Assembly (NCBI RefSeq): GCF_001578185.1
Contig: NZ_CP011008.1
Coordinates: forward strand, 462,001 to 526,000
DNA: 64,000 bases
Direction: 5' to 3'
Origin: Peribacillus simplex
Lineage (GTDB): Bacteria; Bacillota; Bacilli; Bacillales; DSM-1321
Every line of letters begins with the position of its first letter. Position 1 is the stretch's first letter. Shown piece after piece: positions 5,525 through 49,590 of this stretch. The notes beneath the pieces were generated by a model. The model worked only from the letters and a program-made list of their open reading frames with translations. It was not told the DNA's origin and made no database searches. The position numbers were made by a program, and so were the translations under genes.

Positions 5525-5713
5525 ATGAGAAAGGCCTATGGTATAAAAAGTTTAATAATTTACTTAGAATCGGTAAATTATCCAATTACCGAAAAGGAAA
5601 TCGATGATCTAATATTAAATAAGAAGATACCTCATCTAAGACCCATAAATAATTTACTGATTTTTAATTTAGATCATATTGATGGCTGGCTTAGTGATCA
5701 ATTAAAACCTTAG
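5525..5713 (+). CDS. Small excisionase/HTH-like protein (62 aa)
   Basis: A short protein with an excellent GGGAGGTGATTAA ribosome site. The stretch KKIPHLRPINNLLIFNLDHI followed by DGWL resembles the wing of MerR/excisionase-type HTH_17 DNA-binding proteins (pattern: basic K-I-P, hydrophobic strand, then DxIDxWL). I infer a small DNA-binding protein; no integrase, phage or plasmid gene is near. A GC hairpin follows at once. The family assignment rests on pattern only. Confidence 0.5.
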   Translation: MRKAYGIKSLIIYLESVNYPITEKEIDDLILNKKIPHLRPINNLLIFNLDHIDGWLSDQLKP

Positions 5714-26077: not shown

Positions 26078-27412
26078 TTATAATAATGTTTTGATTTCCA
26101 ACTCCTCAGCTGGAGCTGTTTGTCCGATTTGACTGAGCAGAATGCCAAGTGCTGTACCGACGAGAGCAGGGATGACCCACTCCATGCCGTAAGCGGAAAG
26201 GGGAAGGACATCAGTCAAGGTTTGCACGGGTCCTAATTGTAAGCCGAAAGCATTCAGCCCATCCATCAAGGCGAAAACTCCTGTGAAAGTCATTGCACTG
26301 CGATAAACCTTCTTCGGGTTTTTAAAATGACGGCTGAAGAATGTCAGGACAATCAGGACGATCGTTAACGGATAAGCCATCACAAGGAATGGTACCGATA
26401 CTTTCAGAATTTGATTCAGACCCATATTTGAAAGGATGAAACCGACGATTGTTACAATCAGAATGACGCTTTTGTAGTTCAGCTTGGGAAAAAGTTTCGA
26501 GAAGTACTGTCCGCAAGCGGTCGTCAATCCGACGACGGTGGTGAAACATGCTAAAGTGAAAATGATGCCGAGAAGGGCCTTCCCGCCAGTTCCAAGTAAA
26601 AGGGTGGATGCGACTGTGAGGATATCCGTTCCGTTTTCGAATGACCCATCGGCTGCCATGCGTGCTCCCATTATACCTAAGGAGATATAGACTAATGAAA
26701 GCAATACACCAGCGATGAGACCCGCTTTTACTGTATATCTCGTCAATTGTTTTCGATCGGAAATCCCTCTTTGCTGGATTGAAGTAAGGATGACGATCCC
26801 AAATGCCAGGGCAGCTAAAGCATCCATAGTGTTGTACCCTTCAATGAACCCTTTCGAAAATGCTCCTGCTGCATATGCGTCTGTTGGAGCTTTGAATGGA
26901 GCATCAAGCTTTACGAATCCGACAACACAGAGAATGACCATGGACAAAAGCAGAATAGGTGTAATCCAGCGTCCCATGAAGGTTTCCATTTTTTTTGGAT
27001 TCAATGAAATGGCATAAACGATGATGAAAAATATGGTTGTGAATATGAATAGGAATAGGGATTGATTCATTGAGTCACCAAGATATGGCTTGAAGCCCAT
27101 TTCATAGGCGACATTCGCATTCCGTGGAATGGCTAGAAAAGGTCCGATGCTTAAATAAATGACAACCATGAACAACGTGCTGAATAGAGGATGTACACGT
27201 GCCCCGATAGTTTGTGCCCCGCCTTTAACTAGTGAGACGGCGAGAAGCACTAAAATTGGCAGGCCGACTCCAGTGGCGATAAAACCGGTAATGGCTGGCC
27301 AAAAAGAAGTTCCCGAAGACGCCCCTAAAAATGGGGGGAATATAAGATTCCCGGCTCCGAAGAACATTGAGAAAAGCATTAGGCCGATAAATAATGTGTC
27401 TGTTTTTTTCAT
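26078..27412 (-). CDS. brnQ: Branched-chain amino acid carrier BrnQ
   Basis: 444 residues, about twelve membrane helices, N-terminal FIGLMLFSMFFGAGNLIFPP and FWPAITGFIATGVGLPIL, hallmarks of the LIVCS family of Na+-coupled Ile/Leu/Val transporters. The T-box leader upstream supports this assignment independently, since it senses an uncharged branched-chain tRNA. Monocistronic, ending in a strong terminator. Confidence 0.93.
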   Translation of the reverse strand: MKKTDTLFIGLMLFSMFFGAGNLIFPPFLGASSGTSFWPAITGFIATGVGLPILVLLAVSLVKGGAQTIGARVHPLFSTLFMVVIYLSIGPFLAIPRNANVAYEMGFKPYLGDSMNQSLFLFIFTTIFFIIVYAISLNPKKMETFMGRWITPILLLSMVILCVVGFVKLDAPFKAPTDAYAAGAFSKGFIEGYNTMDALAALAFGIVILTSIQQRGISDRKQLTRYTVKAGLIAGVLLSLVYISLGIMGARMAADGSFENGTDILTVASTLLLGTGGKALLGIIFTLACFTTVVGLTTACGQYFSKLFPKLNYKSVILIVTIVGFILSNMGLNQILKVSVPFLVMAYPLTIVLIVLTFFSRHFKNPKKVYRSAMTFTGVFALMDGLNAFGLQLGPVQTLTDVLPLSAYGMEWVIPALVGTALGILLSQIGQTAPAEELEIKTLL

Positions 27413-27485: not shown

Positions 27486-27760
27486 AAATAAAAAACTCGC
27501 CCCTGAAAATCAGGGACGAGTTTGTGCTCGCGTTACCACCCATATTCCGCACTTCATAAGAAGCTGCGGCACTCAGTCAACGTACGAATTCATACGTGAT
27601 CCATTGTAACGGCGGAAACCCGTCAAAGCCTACTGCATTTTCAGCTTTGCATCTCAGAGATGATTTTCGGATAGGCCTTGGACATCGACTTCCACCAAAT
27701 GTCGACTCTCTGTGGAACAGGGTACTAATCTTACTCTTTCTCTTCATAGATTTTATAATA
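27486..27760 (-). promoter_or_regulatory. T-box riboswitch leader of brnQ, probably isoleucine-specific
   Basis: On the minus strand the leader has the stem I landmarks, the conserved T-box GGGTGGTAACGCG (about 27529-27541) and a terminator AACTCGTCCCTG/CAGGGGCGAGTT followed by T residues (27487-27523). The specifier loop appears to be GAAAATCATCTCTGA, giving codon ATC (Ile) followed by A. Uncharged tRNA-Ile would favour antitermination and brnQ expression. Confidence 0.88.
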
Positions 27761-31474: not shown

Positions 31475-31586
31475 ATTCTCTTATCAAGAGTGGCGGAGGG
31501 ACTGGCCCTAAGATGCCCAGCAACCGTTCCATTAGGAATTGGTGCTAAATCCTGCAAAACAGAAATGTTTTGACAGATAAGAGAGG
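31475..31586 (+). promoter_or_regulatory. SAM-I riboswitch (S-box) aptamer
   Basis: P1 is formed by CTCTTATC (31478-31485) and GATAAGAG (31576-31583). Between them are the conserved S-box elements AAGAGTGGCGGAGGGACTGG, CCCTAAGATGCCCAGCAACC and GGTGCTAAATCCTGCA. SAM binding would favour the terminator at 31611-31644, switching off the downstream importer when SAM is plentiful. Confidence 0.96.
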
Positions 31587-31610
31587 GATAAGTCTGCAAT
31601 ACAGCTGATT

Positions 31611-31644
31611 AAACCTCTCTATTACTAGAGAGGTTTTTATTTTA
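31611..31644 (+). terminator. SAM-riboswitch expression-platform terminator
   Basis: AAACCTCTCT and AGAGAGGTTT form a perfect 10-bp stem with loop ATTACT, then TTATTTT. AGAGAGGGATAAG at the aptamer's 3' end can pair with its left arm as the antiterminator. Confidence 0.9.
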
Positions 31645-31699
31645 TGATTTACACCAACTTAACAGATAAGAATAATAAGAGAATGTGGAGGGAAACAAG

Positions 31700-32812
31700 A
31701 TGGGAAGATCTATTAAAGGGATATTCGTTTCAGCCATCGCTTCGGCGTTGCTTTTAACGGGTTGTTCTACAGGACAGAGTTCCACAGAATCGAAGAAAGA
31801 AGAAAAAGTATCATTTGAAAATGTACCGGAAAGATTTGCTGATGGGGAAGGGGCCAAAATCAAAGTGATCCGTAAAATTGGCGGTGATGATCATACGGCC
31901 CAATACCTTGCTGGAGCGAAGGAAGAAGGAGAAGCAATGGGCTTTCAAGTGGATACGTATACAGCCAATGGGGATACGGCTAAATTCCATGATGCGATCG
32001 CGCAGGCTTTGCAGGAAGATTATGACGGCTATATCATCTCCCATGGTGATGATGCAGCAACAGTGAATGACGTTCAAAAGTTGGTTGATGCAGGTAAAAG
32101 CGTTGTCACATTCGATTCAATTAGCGATTTATCTAAAATAGAAGGTGTGACATTAACTTCACAGGATGATGAAGCGTTGGCAACACTGGCTTTTGATAAA
32201 CTGATAGAAGAACAGAAAGGTGAAGCGGCGATTGCTTACCTTTGGGTGGATGGTTTTCCTCCAATGGTGAGAAGAAATTCAGTTTATCAGGAAAAATTAA
32301 AAGAAAACCCTGGAATTAGGGAAGTCGAAAGATTCGGAGTGGCATCTGCAGATACTTCGGTTCAAACACAAAATGCAGTAGCCGCAATGCTGAATAAATA
32401 CCCAAAAGGTAAATTGGATGCCATTTTCGCAACATGGGATGCCTTCGCTATCGGTGCCGCCCGGGCGATTAAAGAAGCGGGCCGCGATGAAGTGAAGATA
32501 TACGGAATTGATGTATCGAATGCAGATCTTCAGGTAATTCAATCGGCCGCTAGCTCATGGTCCTACACGGCAGCCGTCGATCCCAAGTTGATTGGTGCAG
32601 TGAATATGAGGATATTGGCAAAAAAATTAGCGGGCGAAAAAACACCGCAAACCTATGACTTAGAGGCTTCACTTATTTCACAAAAGCAAATCCAAGCCTC
32701 AAAAGAAGCCGTAAACATGGCAAATCTGTCTGGTATTGTCGAAGGATGGGGTGTATCAACGGAATTTGAAGAAGATTGGATGAAAGTTTTGAAAGCTCAT
32801 TATAAAAAGTAA
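31700..32812 (+). CDS. CUT2-type (RbsB-like) substrate-binding lipoprotein under SAM control
   Basis: About 370 residues from ATG 31700 (GGAGGG ribosome site). Lipoprotein signal with LLLTGC (Cys22), then a periplasmic-binding-protein domain of the ribose/galactose type (KIKVIRKIGGDDHTAQYLAG, DYDGYIISHGDDAATVNDVQ, AIFATWDAFAIGAARAI, KIYGIDVSNADLQVIQ). Such proteins bind pentoses, hexoses, AI-2 or nucleoside-like sugars. Control by a SAM-I riboswitch points to a sulfur or methionine-salvage ligand, for example methylthioribose (inference). A hairpin follows before the ATPase gene. Confidence 0.88.
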   Translation: MGRSIKGIFVSAIASALLLTGCSTGQSSTESKKEEKVSFENVPERFADGEGAKIKVIRKIGGDDHTAQYLAGAKEEGEAMGFQVDTYTANGDTAKFHDAIAQALQEDYDGYIISHGDDAATVNDVQKLVDAGKSVVTFDSISDLSKIEGVTLTSQDDEALATLAFDKLIEEQKGEAAIAYLWVDGFPPMVRRNSVYQEKLKENPGIREVERFGVASADTSVQTQNAVAAMLNKYPKGKLDAIFATWDAFAIGAARAIKEAGRDEVKIYGIDVSNADLQVIQSAASSWSYTAAVDPKLIGAVNMRILAKKLAGEKTPQTYDLEASLISQKQIQASKEAVNMANLSGIVEGWGVSTEFEEDWMKVLKAHYKK

Positions 32813-32818
32813 AAGGGG

Positions 32819-32849
32819 ACACTCTCTTTCAAGTGAAGGGAGTGTCTGT
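32819..32849 (+). repeat. Intercistronic hairpin between binding protein and ATPase
   Basis: GACACTCTCTTTC and GAAGGGAGTGTC pair around AAGT without a strong T run. Such stems after binding-protein genes usually reduce expression of, or protect the transcript ahead of, the downstream genes. Confidence 0.65.
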
Positions 32850-32868
32850 TCAATAAGGGGGAATGGAC

Positions 32869-34371
32869 ATGGGCACGCAACTAGAAATGAAGAAAATCTC
32901 GATTGAATTTCCAGGAGTGAAGGCGCTTAGTGAAGTTGACTTTTCTATACAATCAGGGGCAACCCACGCATTGGTCGGTGCAAACGGAGCAGGGAAATCG
33001 ACGTTAATGAAGGTTTTATCGGGAGCCCATGTTCATTATTCAGGTGACATTCTTATTGATGGGATAAAGCAGGATATCCGCTCGCCCAAAGCGGCGCAGG
33101 AACAGGGTATTCAAATAGTTTATCAGGAAGTAGATACGGCCCTCATCCCTTATTTAACCGTTGGGGAAAATATAATGTTGAATGATATGGTCCAAAACAT
33201 GGGAAAAAAACAGATAGTTCAATGGAAAGAGCTACACAACCAAGCCTCTTTAATTCTTGAAGATATGAAAATTCGTGTCCCTTCGAAAAAGCTGGTAAGA
33301 GACCTTACTTTGGCTGAAAAACAGATGGTCCTGATAGCAAGAGCCGTTTCGACAGAATGCAAATTCCTGATTCTCGACGAACCAACTGCTCCGTTAAGTC
33401 ATACAGAAACGACAGAACTTTTTCGGATTGTAAATGAATTAAAGCAAAAAGGTGTTGGAGTCATTTTCATTTCACATCGTCTGCCTGAGATTTTTGAAAT
33501 CTGTGAGGAAATTACGATCATGAGGAATGGGGAGCTTGTCACTTGTCGAAAGATGGAAGACATCACCCGTAACGAAGTGATAGAGAATATGCTAGGGAAA
33601 ACCATGGATGAACAGTTCCCTGAAGTGAATTCTTCGATTGGCGACGTTATTCTGGAAGTGAAGGGATTGTCAGATACAAAGAAAGTTAAAAATGTCAGTC
33701 TGCATATTAAAGCAGGGGAGATAATCGGCTTGGCAGGGTTGGTCGGGTCTGGGAAAACGGAGTTGTGTAAAAGCCTTTTCGGTCATACTTCGATTACAGC
33801 AGGTGAAATCATCCTAAATGGCCGAAAGCTTTCTTTGAAATCACCGCACCAAGCAGTAAAAAGCGGTCTGGCACTTATACCTGAGGAACGCAGGAAAGAA
33901 GGGGTCCTTGTTCAGGAATCAGTATCTGCGAACTTGACTGCAGCCAGTATCGGCAAATTCTGCAAGACATTCAGTTTTGTGGATCGTAAGGCGGAAATGG
34001 AAAAAGCGAAGGAAATGATCGCAAGTCTCGGCATTAAAACTCCTTCCGGGGAGATGAAAGTCGAAAACCTTTCAGGTGGTAACCAGCAAAAGGTTGCCAT
34101 TGGAAAATGGCTTATAGCCGATGCGGATGTATACATATTCGATGAACCAACGAAAGGTGTCGATGTTGGAGCCAAGAAGGATATATTCGAAATGATTGCA
34201 AAGCTTGCGAGGGATGGGAAAGCGATCATTTATGCATCATCCGAGCTCTCCGAAATCATTGGCATTACTAACCGGACATACGTGTTATATGACGGGAGCA
34301 CTGTCATCGAACTAGAAACAAGCAAAACGAATGAAGAAGAACTACTATTCTATTCAACAGGAGGAAATTAG
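32869..34371 (+). CDS. CUT2-type (RbsA-like) double ATPase
   Basis: About 500 residues, two ABC domains in tandem as in RbsA/MglA. Domain 1: GANGAGKST, signature-like DLTLAEKQM (diverged from LSGGQ, as usual in domain 1), Walker B FLILDEPTAPLS. Domain 2: GLVGSGKTE, NLSGGNQQK, VYIFDEPTKGVD. ATG 32869 is preferred to 32863 because GGGGGA then has proper spacing. Energises import by the neighbouring permease; same transcript as the SAM-controlled binding protein. Confidence 0.92.
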   Translation: MGTQLEMKKISIEFPGVKALSEVDFSIQSGATHALVGANGAGKSTLMKVLSGAHVHYSGDILIDGIKQDIRSPKAAQEQGIQIVYQEVDTALIPYLTVGENIMLNDMVQNMGKKQIVQWKELHNQASLILEDMKIRVPSKKLVRDLTLAEKQMVLIARAVSTECKFLILDEPTAPLSHTETTELFRIVNELKQKGVGVIFISHRLPEIFEICEEITIMRNGELVTCRKMEDITRNEVIENMLGKTMDEQFPEVNSSIGDVILEVKGLSDTKKVKNVSLHIKAGEIIGLAGLVGSGKTELCKSLFGHTSITAGEIILNGRKLSLKSPHQAVKSGLALIPEERRKEGVLVQESVSANLTAASIGKFCKTFSFVDRKAEMEKAKEMIASLGIKTPSGEMKVENLSGGNQQKVAIGKWLIADADVYIFDEPTKGVDVGAKKDIFEMIAKLARDGKAIIYASSELSEIIGITNRTYVLYDGSTVIELETSKTNEEELLFYSTGGN

Positions 34372-34372
34372 G

Positions 34373-35377
34373 ATGAGTACACCCATTTCTGTTACACAGA
34401 CAGCGAAAGCGAAGAAAAAGGTGGACCTGTTCGAATTTTTCTATAAATACGGCACAATATTAACGATTGTCATTCTAATTGGAATTTTTGCCGTGTCCAA
34501 TCCATCTTTCATTCAAACTACTAATCTGATCAACATCCTGCGTTCCATCTCAATCGTGACCATCATTGCGATCGGCATAACGATATCCTTGACAGTGAAT
34601 GGGTTCGACCTTTCCGTCGGCTCCGTCGCATCATTGGCTAATGCCATCGTCATATCAATGTTTGTCTGGTTTTCACAGGATACATTGATTGCCATATTAG
34701 CTGCAATCGGTGCCTCACTTGTCGTAGGGGCATTGAATTCATTCATGATCGTTAACTTAAGAATTCCCGACATGCTGATGACATTGGCTACGATGTTCAT
34801 TATCCAGGGAATTGCCCTTACCTATACAAAAGGGGCCACGGTTTCGCAAAATATGGTCATGCCCGACGGGACATTCGCAACAGGACAAATCAGCCAGCTT
34901 TTCGCAAAGGTTGGCCAGGTACCATGGATAATCCTGATCATGGCAGTCATTGTGATTGCGACCCATATCTTTTTGACTTATACGAAGCACGGCCGTTATA
35001 TGTACATGATTGGGGGAAATAAGGAAGCGGCGAGACTTTCCGGGATTTCGGTCAATAAATACAAAGTCCTTGCCTATCTGCTTTCGGCTCTATTTGCTGC
35101 AATCGGGGGGATTGTCCTAGCTTCAAGGGTCATGACATCGGAAATCAATTCAGGGTCCCCTTATTTAATGGATGCCGTTGCAGCAGCCTTCATTGGTTCC
35201 TCCGTTTTAGGAGCGGGAAAACCGAATGCCTTTGGAACCTTCGTCGGTGCAATCTTGATCGGAATCCTTCAAAATGGGCTGATCATGATGGCTGTTCCAT
35301 ATTATGCAATGGATATCGTCAAAGGAACAGTGCTGGCCCTTGCGCTCGCGGTAACTTATTATAAACAAAAACATTAA
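34373..35377 (+). CDS. CUT2-type (RbsC-like) permease
   Basis: About 334 residues from ATG 34373 (AGGAGGAAATTAGG), one base after the ATPase stop. Around nine or ten membrane helices; family motifs GFDLSVGSVASLAN, IPDMLMTLATMFIIQG, GGNKEAARLSGI and PYLMDAVAAAFIGSSVLG. It completes the SAM-riboswitch-controlled importer. Confidence 0.92.
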   Translation: MSTPISVTQTAKAKKKVDLFEFFYKYGTILTIVILIGIFAVSNPSFIQTTNLINILRSISIVTIIAIGITISLTVNGFDLSVGSVASLANAIVISMFVWFSQDTLIAILAAIGASLVVGALNSFMIVNLRIPDMLMTLATMFIIQGIALTYTKGATVSQNMVMPDGTFATGQISQLFAKVGQVPWIILIMAVIVIATHIFLTYTKHGRYMYMIGGNKEAARLSGISVNKYKVLAYLLSALFAAIGGIVLASRVMTSEINSGSPYLMDAVAAAFIGSSVLGAGKPNAFGTFVGAILIGILQNGLIMMAVPYYAMDIVKGTVLALALAVTYYKQKH

Positions 35378-39645: not shown

Positions 39646-39743
39646 AAATGAAAAGTTCTCACTCTACATCATGAACTATACCCACGAAAAAAAATGGACA
39701 CCTTAAAATGAGGGCACTGGAAAAGTCCCTTCGGGCCAATAGA

Positions 39744-39789
39744 GGTAGATTTTCTCAGTTTATTCTGAGGAAATCTACCTTTTTTTGTT
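39744..39789 (+). terminator. Terminator-like hairpin in the IS left end
   Basis: AGGTAGATTTTCTCAG and CTGAGGAAATCTACCT form a stem followed by seven T; it would stop read-in from outside promoters. Confidence 0.75.
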
Positions 39790-39827
39790 TTATAATCAAA
39801 GGTAATAAATTTATGTGGGTGAGTACG

Positions 39828-41279
39828 ATGATTCAAAAACAAACGTCCATGGTTTTTAGTCCATATATGGCCATTTATGATGTAGTGGTTCCAAAGGATA
39901 ACATGTTACGCAAGATCAATGAACTTATTGACTTTTCTTTTGTGTTGGAAGAATTGAGGGACAACTACTGTCTTCATAACGCTAGGAATGCTGTCAATCC
40001 AATACGTATGTTTAAATATTTGCTGCTCAAGACCATTCATTACCTATCAGATGTGGATATAGTTGAGCGCTCCAGGTATGACATGTCCTTTAAATATTTC
40101 CTCGGCATGGCTCCAGAAGATCCAGTCCCATTGACCCTAGCTCCTTAACGAAATTTCGAAAGCTCCGTTTAAAAGACATAAACCTTTTTGATATGCTCAT
40201 TCATAAAACGGTTGAGATTGCGATTGAAAAGGAAATCATTAAAAACAAAACGATTATTGTGGATGCCACCCACACGAAAGCCAGATACAATCATAAGACT
40301 CCAAAAGAAATATTGATGGACCAATCTAAAAGATTAAGAAAAGTAATCTATTCGATAGATGAAGAGATGAAAAATAAATTCCATCCAAAACCACTACTGA
40401 TGTATTGCAGGGTGAAATACTTATTGCCAGAAGCTCATCGAGGTAGTGGAAACAGAAGAGCGTATCACCCAATATCCAAAGGTAAAAGAGCAGTTAAATC
40501 TATTAAAGGAAACGGTATCCGATGATATCGAATAGTTAAGGATCTCCAAAGACCAAGATGTCAAGATTGGCCACAAGAGTGCTGACTCTTCTTTCTTTGG
40601 ATACAAAACACATATTGCGATGAGTGAGGAACGAATCATTACAGCTGCGACTATCACTACAGGTGAAAAAATGGACGGTAAAGAATTAAAGGCATTAATT
40701 GAAAAGAGCAAGGCTGCCGGTAGGGTGATTGAGACCGTGATTGGCGATACAGCTTACTCAGAGAAGGGAAATATTGAATACAGTGAAGAAAATAACATTA
40801 AACTAGTCGCAAAATTGAATCCTTCTGTTACACAGGGATTCCGGAAGAAGGAAGAGGAACTTCAATTTAATAAGGATGCAGGAATGTACGTTTGTAAGGC
40901 TGGGCATTTGGCTATCAGGAAAGCTCGCCAGGGCAAAAAAGATGTAGCGACGAATCAAACAGATACCTATTACTTCGATATAGAAAAGTGTAAGATTTGT
41001 CCCTTAAAAGAGGGCTGTTATAAAGAAGGAGCGAAAAGCAAGACCTATTCTGTCAGTATTAAATCCAATGAACATACAGAACAGGCTACATTCCAGGAAA
41101 GTGAGTATTTTAAAGAAAAATCAAAAGAGCGATATAAAATAGAAGCGGAAAACAGTGAATTGAAACATAGACACGGGCATGATGTTGCAAAATCCTCGGG
41201 TCTACTTGGCATGGAATTACAAGGAGCAATGGCTATTTTCACCGTTAACTTGAAAAGAATATTGAAATTAATTGCCTAA
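39828..41279 (+). pseudogene. IS1182-family transposase, inactivated
   Basis: The frame begins MIQKQTSMVFSPYMAIYDVV and reads to about 40130. A frameshift follows (the other frame continues IDPSSLTKFRKLRLKDINLF), then IIVDATHTKARYNHKTPKEI. A second frameshift lies near 40385-40440 (restored frame CQKLIEVVETEERITQYPKV). An in-frame TAG is at 40533-40535, and the last part is open: GHKSADSSFFGYKTHIAMSE to LQGAMAIFTVNLKRILKLIA. At least three lesions mean it is dead unless rescued in trans. Confidence 0.9.
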
Positions 41280-48904: not shown

Positions 48905-48937
48905 TACTATGACAATTTTAAATATTTCCCGATAAAC

Positions 48938-48977
48938 GGGAGAGGTTCATAGCTTCACCCTCTTAAAAAAACTATGG
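48938..48977 (+). promoter_or_regulatory. PreQ1-I riboswitch aptamer
   Basis: GGGAGAGGTTCATAGCTTCA followed by CCCTCTTAAAAAAACTA matches the class I preQ1 aptamer: P1 stem AGAGG/CCTCT, C-rich loop and A-rich tail ending in AACTA, which forms the pseudoknot. It precedes queF, a preQ1-synthesis gene. Confidence 0.93.
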
Positions 48978-49000
48978 CTTTGATTATTTTTTTGCGAATC

Positions 49001-49089: not shown

Positions 49090-49590
49090 ATGTCTGGAAG
49101 AAAAGAAGAAGAATTAAAAAAAGATATCACACTGCTTGGGAATCAAGGGACAAAATATACATTTGACTATGCGCCTGAAATTCTGGAATCATTCGATAAC
49201 AAGCATCCGAACCGGGACTATTTCGTCAAATTCAATTGCCCGGAATTCACTAGCTTATGTCCAATAACGGGCCAGCCGGACTTTGCAACCATTTACATCA
49301 GCTATATTCCAAGTGTGAAGATGGTGGAAAGCAAGTCATTGAAACTTTATTTATTCAGCTTCCGTAATCATGGTGATTTCCATGAAGACTGCATGAACAT
49401 CATCATGAATGATTTAATCGAGTTGATGGATCCCAAATATATTGAAGTCTGGGGCAAGTTTACACCTAGAGGCGGAATCTCCATCGATCCTTACACAAAT
49501 TATGGTAAACCAGGTACGAAGTATGAGGAAATGGCGGATTACCGCTTGATGAATCATGACTTATACCCGGAAACGGTGGATAATCGCTAA
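49090..49590 (+). CDS. queF: NADPH-dependent preQ0 reductase QueF
   Basis: 166 residues, the short (unimodular) QueF. It reduces the nitrile of 7-cyano-7-deazaguanine to preQ1 for queuosine tRNA modification. Active-site Cys57 in [10 protein letters not shown] forms the thioimide; Asp64 in QPDFATIY assists; the QueF motif [15 protein letters not shown] binds [14 protein letters not shown] near the end is conserved. It is monocistronic, controlled by the preQ1-I riboswitch (product feedback), and followed by a strong terminator. Confidence 0.96.

Follow-up and report, generated by a model that had tools for sequence, protein, structure and literature searches.

The prediction of 5-methylthioribose (MTR) importers of the MtnABC/MtrACB kind reportedly originates in Rodionov 2004. 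A probable MTR importer with an S-box has been described in B. cereus, citing that work as reference 26, and enterobacterial MTR genes are placed under the control of MetJ rather than of an S-box (PMC3228920; this and the other papers cited here by number are represented by extracts). The name "5-methylthioribose ABC transporter" (ABC: ATP-binding cassette) is used in B. cereus (PMC9502454) and mtrB is used in like manner (PMC7843439), and in B. subtilis MTR influx is assigned to MtrA/YfnA (PMC5743806). The subject here is a three-gene importer locus preceded by an S-box, found in a 64,000-nucleotide stretch of the Peribacillus simplex genome (NZ_CP011008.1, positions 462,001 to 526,000; the whole analysed stretch is called the window, and coordinates count from its first letter). 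This locus is, in our judgement, very probably an S-box-controlled MTR importer of the MtnABC/MtrACB kind, with MTR as its predicted ligand.

The S-box leader and the importer genes

The leader and the genes behind it comprise the following features:

31478-31583, + strand: SAM-I (S-box) riboswitch aptamer (Rfam RF00162, 96.5 bits), predicted to bind S-adenosylmethionine (SAM)
31580-31586, + strand: 5' half of the antiterminator (AGAGAGG), which shares bases with the 3' strand of P1
31611-31636, with a T-rich tail to about 31644, + strand: intrinsic terminator hairpin (11 pairs, 4 GC)
31614-31620, + strand: 3' half of the antiterminator (CCTCTCT), within the 5' arm of the terminator and a 7-bp complement to 31580-31586
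31700-32812, + strand: solute-binding lipoprotein, MtrB-like, with predicted MTR binding (Peripla_BP_4, E 4.9e-31)
32869-34371, + strand (the reading frame also opens at 32863): CUT2 ATP-binding protein (ABC_tran, 2e-52, two stretches)
34373-35377, + strand: CUT2 permease (BPD_transp_2, 6.6e-39)

The match to RF00162 is full-length (model positions 1-108 of 108) and exceeds the gathering threshold of 44.4 bits by a wide margin (E 5.3e-22); the aptamer is also recovered by an S-box model from the window's own genome, which counts the window's S-box among its 12 members. The fold of the leader is more stable than that of 200 of 200 dinucleotide shuffles (z -3.8). As one half of the antiterminator overlaps the 3' strand of P1 and pairs with the 5' arm of the terminator, the two folds are mutually exclusive; judged from sequence alone, the leader holds the expression platform of a SAM-I riboswitch, a terminator with a competing antiterminator. 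Taken by itself the antiterminator match is weak, since matches of 7 bp turn up by chance in about 2% of stretches taken at random from the window and in 10% of shuffles (10% and 33%, respectively, for 6 bp). Across 69 related leaders with an S-box directly upstream—kin of one another and hence not independent—a terminator-like hairpin is present in every case (the one picked in L154 lies 152 bases on), accompanied by an antiterminator match of at least 7 bp in 65 and of 6 bp in the other four. The terminator scan as a whole finds two, not more than in shuffles (mean 4.1), and a promoter scan returns 10 sites against a shuffle mean of 9.4; no promoter is claimed, as this count is no higher than in shuffles.

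The three genes together encode a CUT2 ABC importer: a Peripla_BP_4 lipoprotein with a lipobox-like LLLTGC near its N terminus, an ATPase with a double ABC domain, and a BPD_transp_2 permease. These proteins all stay below the sugar-importer equivalog cut-offs, the scores for the ATPase being taken from the best 25 of 193 families. The ribose importer models give 41.6 against a cut-off of 337 bits (RbsB), 486.6 against 745 (RbsA) and 195.3 against 398 (ribose permease); those for the importer of autoinducer-2 (AI-2) give 370.3 against 586 (LsrA), 108.9 against 388 (LsrC) and 93.5 against 500 (LsrD); and the AraG, RbsA and xylose models all match the ATPase below their cut-offs. A sequence-only reading of this DNA had placed an S-box aptamer and terminator ahead of a complete RbsB/RbsA/RbsC-like importer, a description borne out by the RF00162 match, the terminator and the three gene families; its end at 35377 is exact, whereas its start at 31475 sits 3 bases ahead of the aptamer.

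Under low SAM, the leader would form the antiterminator, allowing transcription of the three genes. The lipoprotein would then capture MTR outside the cell for import by the ATPase-permease pair, and the S-box-controlled MtnK and MtnA, followed by MtnW-X-B-D and an aminotransferase, would convert it to methionine. At high SAM, the aptamer would close P1 and the terminator would form, stopping expression.

Structural kinship, the S-box set and relatives

The binding protein was modelled from 56 aligned sequences, 55 of which come from 80 named loci (the best 80 of at least 480 relatives, leaning to close kin), with a mean predicted local distance difference test (pLDDT) score of 88.2; an alignment-free model with a pLDDT of 48.1 was discarded. 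Foldseek ranks first PDB 5ulb, a Yersinia enterocolitica sugar ABC transporter protein (47% identity; no ligand in its title), and in ranks two to four the three chains of PDB 4ry8 from Thermotoga lettingae (30% identity, TM-score 0.93 by target length), listed under a title that opens "Crystal structure of 5-methylthioribose transporter solute binding protein TLET_1677". This entry, second only to 5ulb, is the highest-ranking structure whose title names a ligand, and the structures after it are far behind (E about 1e-29 versus 1e-20). A sequence search of the PDB likewise puts 5ulb (E 1.2e-96) and 4ry8 (E 7.4e-44) well ahead of the others. W246 of the window's protein aligns with a tryptophan in both 5ulb and 4ry8, but with an asparagine in the ribose-binding protein 2ioy, of which an arginine and a glutamine align with S140 and V293; we take these three positions of 2ioy to be ones that contact ribose in the protein of E. 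coli.

The window's genome, of 5.5 Mb, contains 15 S-boxes above the cut-off. One precedes the importer. Downstream of others, NCBIfam models place genes for one MetQ-like and two MetN-like proteins (all three matches below cut-offs), a pyridoxal phosphate enzyme of methionine biosynthesis, a homocysteine methyltransferase/methylenetetrahydrofolate reductase, an O-acetylhomoserine sulfhydrylase, a cysH-type reductase, an S-methylmethionine permease, a methionine-synthase-type protein, MetK, MtnK, and MtnW, and at one further locus (L004) an NhaC-like permease, below cut-off. There is one salvage cluster, in which mtnK-mtnA and mtnW-X-B-D, with a transaminase and a nitrilase-like gene, are served by two divergent S-boxes; MtnK, MtnA, MtnW, MtnX, and MtnB exceed their cut-offs, and mtnD has a Pfam ARD match and no NCBIfam model match. 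The importer genes lie about 2.6 Mb from this cluster. The sole other permease homologue of the genome (E 1e-10) has a GH32 hydrolase and a fructokinase-like gene as neighbours, with no S-box in its 12-kb stretch. The last of the 15, a full S-box of 88.9 bits (L006 1501-1605; G000:C1:1369042-1369146), has a terminator-like hairpin by eye and, downstream on its strand, short frames only, none reaching 80 codons.

Relatives were sought in a sample of 199 genomes of the order, the binding protein being counted at E 1e-30 or better. It is present in 63 of them, the window's own included, with 64 matches. MtnK is found above its cut-off in 101 of the 199, comprising all 63 genomes with the binding protein but only 38 of the 136 others (Fisher p 1.7e-25, kinship ignored). 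Neighbourhoods were compared at the 63 relatives' loci, the window's own left out, over 6 kb either side where the contig allowed; gene calls were limited to 11 queries, and the S-box search used the model built from 12 of the genome's 15 S-boxes, counting an S-box if each gap up to it was at most 1200 bases. One stands directly upstream of the importer in 29 of these loci and in another 26 leads a series of genes on one strand that includes mtnK-mtnA or mtnW-X-B-D, giving 55 loci behind an S-box; a further six lack an S-box and have mtnK-mtnA directly downstream, for a total of 61 of 63. Among the 80 named loci, an S-box is found in 72 (directly upstream in 69, ahead of mtnW-X-B in three), and mtnK-mtnA adjoin the importer in seven of the remaining eight, the last (L147) being a 5.6-kb contig. 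The named loci of 92-96% identity belong to Peribacillus and Bacillus strains.

Presence of the importer is patchy in the genus, as it is not found at E 1e-30 in four same-genus genomes (G104, G133, G159, and G185), two of which (G133 and G185) do have mtnK. Six loci of Neobacillus niacini and its kin (L129, L137, L138, L140, L145, and L149) possess the S-box and binding protein, with neither ATPase nor permease found in the available stretch (only 1.7 kb downstream in L140); the binding-protein gene of L129 is followed instead by one for a ThrE-type exporter. Tandem binding-protein copies followed by one ATPase occur in L147 (2477-5075) and L172 (4461-7053).

Rival ligands and possible importer reuse in carbon pathways

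Several observations weigh against MTR import. Identity to 4RY8 is 30%, and the ligand of that structure is taken from its title. This importer is lacking at E 1e-30 in 38 of the 101 genomes with mtnK, and two relatives' loci have neither an S-box nor an mtn neighbour (L074, and L093, whose start is 90 bases away from the end of its contig). B. subtilis takes in MTR by another carrier, MtrA/YfnA (PMC5743806). Furthermore, four close-group importers, which match the S-box ones at 49 compared positions save for minor variants, serve mtnK-mtnA operons with no mtnW nearby, and hence a wider 5-deoxypentose range would fit too: MTR alone, or 5-deoxyribose as well, is compatible with the data.

Loci of this last type would suit an importer of 5-deoxyribose—or of 5-deoxypentoses generally, MTR included—that feeds the dihydroxyacetone phosphate (DHAP) shunt or disposes of radical-SAM by-products. 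The importer is joined to mtnK-mtnA without a nearby mtnW in 7 of the 63 relatives' loci, six without an S-box (L047, L058, L067, L073, L075, and L076) and one with (L050), and a class II aldolase follows in all but L047, where none is seen in the next 8 kb. The binding proteins of the six loci without an S-box are not gathered in the binding-protein tree, which carries long-branch warnings (5 changes against a shuffled mean of 5.8, with 96 of 500 shuffles as low), and gene clusters that include sugar transporters may serve to salvage 5-deoxyribose from outside the cell (PMC6079011). The window's genome, however, has a methionine salvage cluster and no bacterial microcompartment (BMC) shell protein, and its importer is under an S-box, as methionine genes are. 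The DHAP-shunt aldolase is also unmatched there at E 1e-5, in a search that had no positive control and missed the distantly related MtnB too, and which thus excludes only a close relative of the aldolase. For the window's locus, this explanation is unlikely.

An ordinary ribose importer (RbsBAC) that gained an S-box would have the same fold and component types, and among NCBIfam names RbsB fits the binding protein best; yet the RbsB score is below its cut-off (41.6 against 337 bits), W246, S140, and V293 replace the presumed ribose contacts of 2ioy, and no sugar kinase or LacI-type regulator is found among the four neighbours scanned, so that ribose is very improbable. Import of AI-2 or another product of the SAM cycle (S-ribosylhomocysteine, methylthioadenosine) is just as hard to credit: these compounds are also SAM-derived and S-box control would suit them, but LsrB (6dsp) matches only at E 5.2e-5, the LsrA, LsrC, and LsrD models are far from their cut-offs, there is a single permease gene instead of two, and the adjoining kinase and isomerase in relatives are homologues of MtnK and MtnA. 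The sequence-only reading had proposed uptake of a SAM-derived sugar, naming MTR first, and had called for a check on whether homologues are linked to S-boxes or mtnK/mtnA. That link is found at 61 of 63 relatives' loci and, together with 4RY8 and the presence of mtnK in 63 of 63 genomes, favours MTR; of the other candidates it listed, 5-deoxyribose stays as a possible second ligand, and ribose and AI-2 are disfavoured.

Four genomes (G016, G103, G137, and G152) have several BMC shell domains close to the importer, no more than about 11 kb away. All four have an aldehyde dehydrogenase (Pfam), which in G103 reaches the PRK15398 cut-off, and G103, G137, and G152 also have a PTAC (PduL-type) gene. 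The loci concerned (L192 in G152, L194 in G137, L195 in G103, and L196 in G016) combine importer-mtnK-mtnA with a class II aldolase, the aldehyde dehydrogenase, and BMC shell genes, and possibly specify a microcompartment for 5-deoxypentose breakdown. At L050 (G016), an S-box (5551-5658 in binding-protein orientation) directly precedes the importer of a DHAP-shunt/microcompartment operon, a locus that appears to mix sulfur control with a carbon pathway. A general link to shell genes is disfavoured by G154 and G167, where importer-mtnK-mtnA-aldolase has no shell genes nearby, by G029, where they are some 50 kb away from the importer, and by 27 of the 31 shell-gene genomes, which have none beside this importer (in one of the 27, G028, about 5 kb separates the shell genes from an mtnK). 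The dehydrogenase is found at 67-76% identity in 8 of 11 chosen named genomes, all eight having importer-mtnK-mtnA with no mtnW at the locus, and the three that lack it carry an S-box or a salvage operon; these genomes add little independent weight, since several share species with sampled ones.

Both kinds of importer occur within one genome in G137 (L073 and L102) and in Bacillus dakarensis (L170 and L186). In the close group, no residue among the 49 positions separates S-box from DHAP-shunt binding proteins: the four DHAP rows agree with the 25 others (which include L050 and L074, not plain S-box cases) save for minor variants at 187, 245, 272, and 289. In the distant group, whose 33 rows include L093, the DHAP rows L075 and L076 depart at many positions from those with an S-box, which says nothing clear on the ligand because the tree places both nearer the window's group. 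One binding specificity, for MTR or 5-deoxypentoses, may therefore be plugged into two pathways. Our tentative suggestion, to which we give somewhat less than even weight, is that the family serves these pathways by swapped control, with S-box importers supplying MTR as a sulfur source, DHAP-shunt importers supplying MTR and/or 5-deoxyribose as a carbon source, and several Bacillales carrying out the breakdown in a microcompartment. Its proposed contents are the aldolase, an aldehyde dehydrogenase of the CoA-acylating type, shell proteins, and a PduL-type enzyme. A search of a limited collection of papers found no description of a microcompartment tied to MTR, 5-deoxyribose, or the DHAP shunt. 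An MTR kinase is noted next to the Acetobacterium woodii pdu cluster and called unrelated to BMC function (PMC7593272). Reuse of the importer in DHAP-shunt and microcompartment operons provides a way to test its preference for MTR or 5-deoxyribose, and the microcompartment loci are a fresher lead than the window's locus.

Other features of the window and comparison with known systems

Elsewhere, the window contains:

27509-27756, - strand: T-box leader (132 bits), preceding the gene of a branched-chain amino acid carrier (26078-27412)
39708-41279, + strand: transposase split into pieces, with domains DUF772 and DDE_Tnp_1_6
48936-48981, + strand: PreQ1 riboswitch (39.4 against a cut-off of 39, just over), ahead of a queF gene (49090-49590)

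Another comparison for the binding protein is TLET_1677 (4RY8), with which it shares its fold and residues H115, G116, D139, Q155, D157, R192, W246, D247, and D271, and from which it differs in overall sequence (30% identity) and in other residues of the loop at 58-68. 5ULB is the top match of all at 47% identity, although a glutamine replaces H115 there and its title gives no ligand. The prediction reportedly made in 2004 is strengthened in that S-box, salvage kinase, and MTR-type binding protein go together across the sample, and importers that look like ribose transporters can be assigned a name more confidently. The locus also allows a clean test of whether soil Bacillales draw sulfur from environmental MTR.

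MtrA (YfnA) of B. subtilis is not known to be an ABC importer. Its proposed substrate is the same as that of the window's importer (PMC5743806). The MtnABC/MtrACB systems, to which the locus is likened by description, are sugar-type ABC importers under an S-box (B. cereus) or MetJ boxes (gammaproteobacteria) and tied to mtn genes (PMC3228920), whereas in the window binding protein, ATPase, and permease stand alone behind their own S-box, remote from the mtn cluster. The locus is nonetheless of a known kind, the pairing of a SAM S-box with an MTR importer having already been predicted in a related Bacillus species, according to the extracts cited. As the same pairing is in print, the surprise is smaller than the sequence-only reading had scored it, and the interpretation of the window's locus as an MTR importer is supported rather than new.

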